Source of the DNA: Brachyspira intermedia PWS/A
GTDB taxonomy: Bacteria > Spirochaetota > Brachyspiria > Brachyspirales > Brachyspiraceae
Assembly: GCF_000223215.1 (NCBI RefSeq)
Contig: NC_017243.1
Coordinates: forward strand, 1,922,001 to 1,986,000
Length of the DNA stretch: 64,000 bases
Direction: 5' to 3'
The notes under the pieces are model-generated. The model saw nothing but the letters and a program-made list of their open reading frames with translations, searched no databases and was not told where the DNA came from. The translations under genes were made by a program, and so were the position numbers. This document shows, piece after piece, positions 13,031-15,120 of this stretch. Numbering within the stretch: the first letter of the stretch is position 1; every line of letters starts with the position of its first letter.

Positions 13031-13194
13031 AATTAAAAAAATTATTTTTTATAAAAACTAATTATAATAGAATAATGATAAATTTAAATGATTTATTTTT
13101 TATAATTTTTTATTGAAACATAAAAATTAATGTCTATATAATAAAATTATTTACATCAATCTCTTTTATAGTATCATTTTCAATATAATATATA
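13031..13194. repeat. Direct repeat copy 2
   Basis: Partner of 12311-12472. It consists of the spacer downstream of the unknown gene plus the last codons of that gene, which is intact here. Confidence 0.85.
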
Positions 13195-14165
13195 ATACCA
13201 AAAACATCATTAAAAAAACAATTATTATTTTTTATGGTGATGATATTTTTTATACTTTCATCTTTTATATTATAACTTTTAATATTTATGGAATATTTAT
13301 TGAAATCAAATGCAATTAAATTATCCTTATAAAAATATAGCTTTCCATGAACTTCATTATTTTCATCTAAACTAAATAAATTAATATTAATACTATTATA
13401 GCTTTCTAAATATCTATACTCATTATTATCGCTATCATCTATTTTTATATCATCTATATTGTAGAATCTTAATTGATTATAAATAAAATCTTCATCATTA
13501 AAATTCGTATTATCACAAGCCAAAACAAATCTTTTATTATCTATAAAAGCAAGAGGTCTGTCCCAATTATAACCGCTTATATATTCATTAACAACATCCA
13601 CTTGACATTTCTCATATTCTTTCAAAAACTCCTCAATGTTAAAACAGCTTATACAGTCCACAGGATTCCATACCCAGCCATTACAAAGAAAATGTTTATA
13701 ATCTTTTGATACCAATAAATTACTGTGAAAATAATCTATACCAAATTTTTCTTCATCTCTGTTTATATCTGTTATCATCTCTTTAGTTTTTAAATTCATT
13801 ATATTAAGAGTATTCCATTTAGTTTGAGTGATAAGATGTATTTCATTATTAATAATACAAAATTCATTAGAATAGCTTGATACTTCAGAATGATAATCTT
13901 CTCTTTTTAAATAAATTACTTCTAATGTTTCTATATTTACAACAGCGGAATTTAATCCTTTCTCCTCAGTTATGCATATATAAGGATACATTAATTTTAA
14001 AACTGTAACTTCTTCTTTGGAATTTATATTTTCTATTTTTATTAAATCTTTATACGAATTATATTTTTTATTATACTTTATTAATTTAGAATCATCAGTA
14101 AATAAAAAATATTCTTCTAAGTTTTTATAATTTAAAACAGTATTCTCTATCATAGCGTTTATCAT
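13134..14165 (-). CDS. Protein of unknown function, probably beta-propeller-like
   Basis: 343 residues that I do not recognise. The sequence is rich in short beta-type stretches separated by Asp/Asn turns (for example MYPYICITEEKG, FCIINNEIHLITQ, RFVLACDNTN), in a spacing reminiscent of WD-like or PQQ-like propellers. No signal peptide, membrane helix or Cys cluster is seen, so it is probably cytosolic. The start is ATG at 14163-14165, with another ATG four codons later; no strong ribosome site precedes either. A C-rich tract (14204-14219) lies 39 bp upstream. A truncated paralogue end lies downstream at 12412-12472. Confidence 0.6.
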   Translation of the reverse strand: MINAMIENTVLNYKNLEEYFLFTDDSKLIKYNKKYNSYKDLIKIENINSKEEVTVLKLMYPYICITEEKGLNSAVVNIETLEVIYLKREDYHSEVSSYSNEFCIINNEIHLITQTKWNTLNIMNLKTKEMITDINRDEEKFGIDYFHSNLLVSKDYKHFLCNGWVWNPVDCISCFNIEEFLKEYEKCQVDVVNEYISGYNWDRPLAFIDNKRFVLACDNTNFNDEDFIYNQLRFYNIDDIKIDDSDNNEYRYLESYNSININLFSLDENNEVHGKLYFYKDNLIAFDFNKYSINIKSYNIKDESIKNIITIKNNNCFFNDVFGIIYYIENDTIKEIDVNNFII

Positions 14166-14203
14166 AAAATAAAAATGAAAAATATCAATAAGAATCTACA
14201 CAG

Positions 14204-14219
14204 CCCGCCCACCCGCCCC
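14204..14219 (-). other. G-quadruplex-type tract upstream of the unknown gene
   Basis: On the minus strand the sequence reads GGGGCGGGTGGGCGGG: four runs of at least three G separated by single bases, the canonical intramolecular G4 pattern. It lies between the stop of the CDF gene and the start of the 13134-14165 gene, where the minus-strand transcript or non-template strand carries the G runs. Confidence 0.75.
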
Positions 14220-14241
14220 TATTTTTTTATTAGATAAGCAT

Positions 14242-15120
14242 TTATTTATATGCTTCTATATGTATAGTAGGCTCTATACTCAACTTTTCTCTTATGGCAT
14301 TTTCAAATAATGTAGCCTTTGAATGAGCATCAAAGACAGTCATATCTTTAGGGAAACGCATATGGAAAGTTATTTCGCTATGATCTCCATAAGTATGTAT
14401 ATGAAAATGATGAAGATTTAAATCAGTATTATCTATATTCATTTCTTCAGCTATTTTTTTAATACTCTCTATAGTTTCTTTAGAAGGGTATTCTCCTATC
14501 AAAGGTTTTACACTGGATTTAATAACATCGAAAGCTGCATAAAATATTACAAGTGAAACCAATATACTTAATACACTGTCTAACCACCAAAAACTTTTAC
14601 CAAATAAAATACCAACTAATATAATTATAGAAGTAACACTGTCGCTTCTATGATGCCAAGCATCAGCATAGAGTGATTTTGAACCGGATTTTCTATATCC
14701 CCAAAAAGAATACTGTGCTAATAATTCCTTTACAAGTATTGAAACCACCATAGCAATTATAGCCATAGTTGTAAATGAAGCTGATTTTTTATTCATAATG
14801 TTTTGAATAGCTTCAGAGAAAAAACTATATCCTATAAATACAAGCATTATTCCAACTATAAAACTTGTTATAAGCTCTATTCTTCCATGTCCGAAAGGAT
14901 GTTCTTCGTCTGGAGGTCTTTTTGAAAATATTCCGCCTATTATGACTATTATACTGCTTATACAATCGCTTAATGAATGCCAAGCATCAGCCATAATAGA
15001 AAGAGAACCTGTAAGCAAACCTACAGCATATTTAAAAGCAAATAATAATATATTGATGATTACAGATACTATACCCTCTATTATCATATATTTAGATTTC
15101 TTCTCATTACTCATGTTCAT
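14242..15120 (-). CDS. Cation diffusion facilitator family transporter
   Basis: 292 residues with about five to six membrane helices and a cytoplasmic C-terminal domain, as in CDF/ZitB-type metal-proton antiporters. Helix 2 has ADAWHSLSD and helix 5 ADAWHHRSD, supplying the His/Asp metal site. His in the first motif and the HH pair in the second are compatible with zinc or manganese, but the ion cannot be assigned. The C-terminal domain carries LHHFHIHTYGDHSEI. The start is MNMSN at 15120 or the second ATG two codons later; a GGGGT stretch lies upstream. Confidence 0.92.
   Translation of the reverse strand: MNMSNEKKSKYMIIEGIVSVIINILLFAFKYAVGLLTGSLSIMADAWHSLSDCISSIIVIIGGIFSKRPPDEEHPFGHGRIELITSFIVGIMLVFIGYSFFSEAIQNIMNKKSASFTTMAIIAMVVSILVKELLAQYSFWGYRKSGSKSLYADAWHHRSDSVTSIIILVGILFGKSFWWLDSVLSILVSLVIFYAAFDVIKSSVKPLIGEYPSKETIESIKKIAEEMNIDNTDLNLHHFHIHTYGDHSEITFHMRFPKDMTVFDAHSKATLFENAIREKLSIEPTIHIEAYK

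Follow-up and report, generated by a model that had tools for sequence, protein, structure and literature searches.

The stretch of DNA considered here raises a simple question: what is a run of four guanine tracts doing between two genes of a spirochaete whose DNA is so poor in G and C? The window, by which we mean the whole stretch of 64,000 nucleotides that was analysed, has a G+C content of 27%, and on its minus strand the letters at 14204-14219, read directly from the sequence, are GGGGCGGGTGGGCGGG. This core fits the canonical G-quadruplex (G4) pattern of four tracts of three or more guanines separated by loops of one to seven bases, and the 16-mer has a G4Hunter score of 2.56. An earlier note on this DNA had described the motif as a canonical G4 form that was improbable at this composition, and both descriptions hold, the first as a statement about sequence. 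No four-tract match arose in 100 dinucleotide-preserving shuffles of the window, and a first-order Markov model using the window's base steps gives about 0.0016 expected sites on both strands of 3.31 Mb, against nine places found. Neither strand at the core gives a stable ordinary structure in a folding tool, which we take not to model quadruplexes. The features of the locus are as follows.

14242 to 15120, minus strand: cation-efflux (CDF) transporter gene (PF01545, E 1.1e-52; PF16916, E 2.6e-12)
14204 to 14219, minus strand: G4 core, GGGG C GGG T GGG C GGG, with one-base loops; one of the nine four-tract places in the genome
14192 to 14203, minus strand: conserved 3′ flank (CTGTGTAGATTC), family pattern approximately S W N A N T A N A T, the window copy having T and not A at +4
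14164 to 14221, minus strand: stretch matched by the family model R1 at 45.1 bits (E 5.7e-13), a match that follows by construction, since the model was built from an alignment that includes this copy
14161 to 14188, minus strand: promoter-like boxes TTGATA and TATGAT with a 16-nt spacer, 15 nt downstream of the G4 core
13134 to 14165, minus strand: open reading frame (ORF) of 343 amino acids without a family match, broken in six of the 12 genomes that carry the element here

The core lies 22 nt past the stop codon of the cation-efflux gene and 38 nt ahead of the listed start of the 343-aa ORF, just upstream of an unknown gene as the earlier note had it; this ORF matches nothing in Pfam at E 0.1 or in NCBIfam at E 1.

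A dispersed family of copies

The genome-wide search that the earlier note had called for covered 3,308,048 bases in two contigs (3,304,788 and 3,260). Once overlapping rows were merged it returned nine separate places matching GGGN{1,7}GGGNGGGNGGG, so the motif is not unique, and the fourth tract is present in nine of the ten places that have three tracts at one-base spacing. The four-tract pattern is matched in 20 of 26 Brachyspira genomes, the match in G001 being a poly-G run alone; with the poly-G rows of G001 and G022 omitted, there are 136 four-tract places across 19 of the 26. Absence from related strains, which the earlier note had named as grounds for abandoning its idea, is therefore not what is seen at the level of the genus. 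No two rows stand four bases apart, so a fifth tract is absent in all 136 places. A stricter pattern that includes the flank found 20 stretches in genome_contigs (84,980 species), all of them Brachyspira by title, in a scan that may omit records of the window's own genome or of one very near to it.

Two other readings of the motif were tried and rejected. The strict pattern was without any match in IMG/VR, which speaks against a virus-borne origin, and the comparison with known RNA families gave a single snoRNA match, below threshold, at E 0.7.

Surroundings were read for 83 of the 136 places, with about 3 kb on each side, in 12 genomes (G025 being represented by two of its seven places). By a crude ORF caller, 79 of the 83 lie outside ORFs of at least 60 aa; three of the remaining four fall in frames of 62-68 aa, and the last falls in a 490-aa frame, where, judging by start choice, it probably sits ahead of the true start. 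When the places are clustered by their flanking proteins, 29 groups result, of which 15 have more than one member. Some of these groups are orthologous loci, one spanning eight genomes, and the largest, with 11 members, is joined through vsp and PDDEXK_2 genes and is not a single locus.

The family model matches at least 22 of the 26 genomes at E 0.01, some of the weak matches being two-tract forms that may belong to another repeat; the next-best match in the window reaches only 11.4 bits. Among the 83 fetched places the first tract ranges from three to five G, and the first loop is itself G in two copies, giving a run of eight. Lower-scoring matches were the main target in a set of 18 stretches, which contain 25 matches to the model; we sorted these by eye into four intact copies, seven with one unit lost, nine with a broken tract and five two-tract forms; a gain of a unit was seen in none of them. 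One intact copy of the family has a loop of two bases.

A common 3′ flank at unrelated loci, together with a clean empty counterpart in relatives, makes it nearly certain that this is a dispersed short intergenic repeat of Brachyspira. We prefer to go one step further and regard the window motif as one copy of an interspersed intergenic quadruplex repeat that acts in DNA, an account over which our confidence is evenly divided. It has two serious remaining rivals, a binding site read in duplex DNA and a neutral relic.

The flank and the duplex-binding alternative

Beyond the tracts, the element was characterized from an alignment, A1, of 31 chosen copies with the vsp-type omitted, and flank statistics were taken from 26 chosen copies, with groups represented mostly once and never by more than a few. 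Positions +1 to +12 of the flank have a mean column entropy of 1.15 bits, against 1.53-1.69 in background stretches, and A stands at +4, +7 and +9 in 23, 23 and 24 of the 26 copies. This conservation between unrelated loci counts against the quadruplex account, since folding alone would not need it, and it favours the idea of a DNA-binding protein of Brachyspira that recognizes GGGGYGGGYGGGCGGG, together with the A positions of the flank, in the duplex, G4 potential being incidental. The third loop, which is C in most of the 136 places and in at least 90% of A1, points the same way. Other features of the core are hard to square with a protein that reads letters: loop letters differ between orthologues, the length of the first tract and the identity of the first loop vary as described above, one intact copy has the longer loop, and neither spacing nor orientation to the adjoining genes is fixed. 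We consider a duplex site rather unlikely.

No common hairpin follows the core, and folds differ among the 34 copies folded. A coding origin was also rejected: the flank reads A-E-stop in one frame of several copies, but the frame is soon closed by stops on the upstream side (11-27 residues in the five G4 copies inspected), so we do not take it for the end of a gene.

Conservation at orthologous loci

The quadruplex account was examined further at three loci where copies can be compared between genomes. The cation-efflux gene is found in 25 of the 26 genomes and is followed by the element in 12, of which ten have it intact, G006 has one tract broken and G005 has it split. At the second locus, in front of hisH, the gene was found in 19 genomes and the preceding gap was read in 18. 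(The names hisB, hisH, DmpA-like, FtsH, peptidase-like and lipoprotein are our presumptions, from reading sequences by eye.) The gap between hisB and hisH is filled in eight of the 18, with 78-81 nt from the preceding stop to a promoter box and the element intact in all eight, and is empty in six (G002, G006, G008, G009, G018 and G020), with 2-13 nt and no element; of the other four, G001 and G003 have hardly any gap, and G014 and G015 have other upstream DNA. Inspected by eye, the gap sequences are so diverged that a target-site duplication would not show in them.

The two loci agree on which columns change. At the CDF locus (11 genomes, the split G005 omitted), one of 13 G columns, three of three loop columns and 22 of 84 flank columns are variable; at the hisH locus (eight genomes) the counts are 0 of 13, two of three and 26 of 107, and pooled they are 1 of 26, 5 of 6 and 48 of 191. 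Loop letters exchange C and T between orthologues. Since the genomes are related and not independent, the corresponding p values, 0.007 (CDF) and 0.025 (hisH) for G against loops and 0.18 (CDF) and 0.07 (hisH) for G against flank, are to be read with that in mind. G columns steadier than loops at two loci suggest selection on the G-tracts, which is likely, if thinly based on two loci in related genomes.

The third locus was found in 25 genomes and read in 22 (G001, G020 and G023 left out), 12 of which have the element there. Five copies are intact (G004, G005, G006, G009 and G017), G008 and G015 have three tracts, G021 has one, and those of G000, G007, G022 and G024, judged from the flank that remains, are decayed, so that the window's own species has a decayed copy here. 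That only five of the 12 element-bearing genomes keep the third copy intact counts against the quadruplex account.

These data bear directly on the second serious rival, in which the element is a small repeat that has no function, spread selfishly or by accident, and is now in slow decay. Decayed or contracted copies are indeed common (the seven three-tract and nine broken-tract copies in the 18 stretches picked mainly for lower scores), presence varies between species, and seven of the 12 third-locus copies are not intact. Yet a run of 13 G should erode fast at the intergenic G+C of B. intermedia PWS/A, which an excerpt of PMC3163572 puts at 20.4%, and of the 20 copies at the CDF and hisH loci 18 have stayed intact, their loops changing all the while. 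A neutral relic seems improbable to us, and is by a small margin the less probable of the two rivals.

Independence from the adjoining genes

Two further explanations tie the element to a neighbouring transcript. The earlier note proposed that the motif regulates the downstream gene, as a switch upstream of the promoter of the 343-aa ORF. The core does end 15 nt before a promoter-like -35 box, and this TTGATA box is conserved in all 11 genomes aligned; taken alone, the boxes are weak evidence, as the region has three promoter-like sites against 3.9 expected in shuffles. The core, being upstream of these boxes, would be absent from any transcript started there. Among the 12 carriers, the 343-aa gene is full length or nearly so in four (G000, G004, G005 and G008), runs open to the contig end in G023, escapes scoring in G015 because of a run of N, and is broken in six (G006, G007, G009, G022, G024 and G025), five of which have an intact core. 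Conversely, an unbroken gene is found elsewhere in G002, G014 and G020, where the three-tract motif is absent from the fetched gene loci and a four-tract match is absent from the contigs. Other copies of the element have no fixed linkage to a promoter. Since the motif often persists where its neighbouring gene has broken down, it is probably neither kept for the 343-aa gene nor a private switch of that gene; this part of the earlier note is not supported, and we regard such a switch as very improbable.

The start of the 343-aa ORF deserves a remark of its own. The second ATG, at 14153, is the likelier start, because most relatives' frames begin there. Within 14153-14166, the listed start ATG overlaps the -10-like box, and the ATG at 14153, common to relatives, would yield a leaderless message.

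A signal at the RNA level, in which a transcript of the G strand folds and influences where the mRNA of the upstream gene ends or how stable it is, deserves equally little credence: in 51 of the 79 intergenic copies the G strand has the sense of the upstream gene, sometimes 13-26 nt past its stop, but it is antisense in 28, the copy in the his gap is antisense to both neighbours, and a normal terminator hairpin, by eye, precedes some copies. Measured against the G strand, the upstream and downstream neighbours run same-same in 31 cases, same-opposite in 19, opposite-opposite in 15 and opposite-same in 13, with one copy lacking a downstream gene, so the element occurs in convergent, divergent and codirectional gaps and its orientation is not fixed.

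A junction inside the motif

We return to the quadruplex repeat and to the suggestion in the earlier note that the motif pauses replication. In G005 the DNA after the CDF gene reads GGGGTGGGCGG and continues into foreign sequence, the junction falling inside the motif core. The 53-base stretch that ends in GGGGTGGGCGG recurs identically on another G005 contig, ahead of the 343-aa gene with its complete core. The foreign sequence consists of three pieces. The first is 67 bases matching a distant peptidase-like gene, whose source is still in place in G005 and is there preceded by GGGGTTGGCGG; the second is a 39-base match on the opposite strand of that distant locus, about 220 bases away, with 10 bases in common with the first; and the third comes from a lipoprotein locus. 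Fork stalling with template switching is marked by a few letters in common at each switch point and by copied segments whose donor stays behind. The G005 junction bears signs of such a switch, as one event in one draft assembly.

A general rearrangement hot spot was also considered and rejected. In 477 ordered comparisons between loci sharing one flank, the other flank across the motif is kept 372 times; a matched control that uses the next stretch on the same side gives 384 out of 487 (p 0.75, the genomes being related and not independent). The control takes pairs with the motif in both genomes, so breaks that destroy the motif are missed. Flank changes near copies were viewed in five pairs; in one (L089) homology ends about 35 bases from the core. 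Of the pausing idea there stands, then, one junction inside the motif with template-switch features, while a general excess of breakpoints does not appear in the matched control.

Other repeats and neighbourhoods

Several observations on distribution and surroundings are recorded here in their own right. On C2 of G000, eight of the ten places with at least three tracts are no farther than about 420 kb from the published origin end of the chromosome, a span that covers a quarter of the genome; this limit was set after the data had been seen, and two places are a local duplicate. In G004 (locus L260, 2146-9730), four tandem vsp-like surface-protein genes each have a copy of the element about 135-151 nt downstream; only the fourth gene's copy is intact, and it is followed by a three-tract copy and another intact copy. 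PF05540 was confirmed on a gene of a relative. In G009, G015 and G006, several copies precede nuclease genes of the PDDEXK_2 (Rpn) type or fragments of them (L111, L113, L116, L121, L122 and L099), an assignment for which Pfam was run on two of those loci. Copies also lie 62-63 nt downstream of genes that by eye resemble type I restriction specificity subunits (L069 and L071).

A second, larger repeat of G000, seen for example in L280, L285, L286 and L299 around position 1501, is palindromic, apparently non-coding and about 200 bp long. One arm contains GGGCGGGGTATGTAAAT and the other GGGTGGG, and the whole resembles a MITE. It is frequently reduced to one arm, and no strong copy was seen in the window. 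Allowing up to two mismatches, the seed pattern has at least 110 matches in G000 (at least 52 for the reversed pattern), of which at least six are G4 elements. The letters after the G-tracts are similar, but a CCC.CCC partner is found within 200 nt in only two of 83 copies of the G4 element, so the two repeats are kept apart. Some relatives have other repeated stretches, after the CDF gene (L156 and L160) and after a DmpA-like gene (L186 and L195), whose letters include CCCGCCGC and AAAAAGT.GCAAA.

Relation to known systems

We found no report of this Brachyspira G-quadruplex repeat in the open-access literature searched. The nearest published case found, going by an excerpt of the source, is that of the intergenic quadruplex-forming heptamer repeats GGGAATC of Xanthomonas and GGGGAYT of Nostoc (Rehm et al. 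2015, PMC4692102). As excerpted there, those repeats are likewise dispersed, mostly intergenic, G4-capable and found on both strands, and they are tandem arrays of a 7-nt unit, the arrays varying in length (39-179 nt in the Nostoc-type genome). Unlike them, the Brachyspira element has four tracts at a 4-nt step, one-base loops and a conserved non-G flank; it shows no tandem heptamers and no fifth tract in 136 places, and three-tract copies exist.

Neisseria pilE has a quadruplex that serves antigenic variation. The G-runs of Borrelia vls are described in PMC3585125 as antigenic-variation quadruplexes too, and the likeness to both systems is of G-rich, G4-capable DNA in a bacterial genome, with copies following each of four vsp surface-protein genes in one relative. 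Unlike pilE and vls, the window copy lies between a CDF transporter gene and the 343-aa ORF, with no surface antigen adjacent and no donor-recipient gene set seen at the locus; linkage to vsp is confined to some copies of relatives, and many other copies lie away from surface-protein genes. With REP and MITE elements it shares being short, non-coding, multi-copy, intergenic and present or absent at the same gap in relatives, as between hisB and hisH; unlike them, it has neither an inverted repeat nor a hairpin common to the copies folded.

A proposed role in DNA

On the quadruplex account, a core of four G-tracts with single-base loops, followed by an AT-rich conserved flank, would have spread to many loci. 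Its copies are conserved at orthologous loci, and their loss would proceed through a dropped GGGY unit or through changes of single G. Selection, where it acts, would target the four-tract pattern more than the loop letters, and a preference of this kind would make a folded quadruplex in DNA the most likely working form, arising when replication or transcription opens the duplex. Folding of the element in the cell is plausible; once folded, it may hinder polymerases locally or serve as a docking site for a protein that binds quadruplexes, with whatever benefit that might confer.

Tentatively, and with more doubt than belief, we propose a wider view: a genus-specific family of single, fixed-size quadruplexes that, in DNA otherwise avoiding G and C, are selected as chromosome-level structural signals, as programmed fork obstacles or platforms for a dedicated G4-binding protein, and that on failure seed template-switch rearrangements. 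If this is true, an extremely AT-rich bacterial genome maintains about ten isolated, near-identical quadruplex motifs. They would form a clean natural system, small and countable, with decayed and empty orthologous sites as controls and one fork-switch-like junction at the motif itself, and the old question of whether G4 motifs have any role in bacterial cells would become testable copy by copy.
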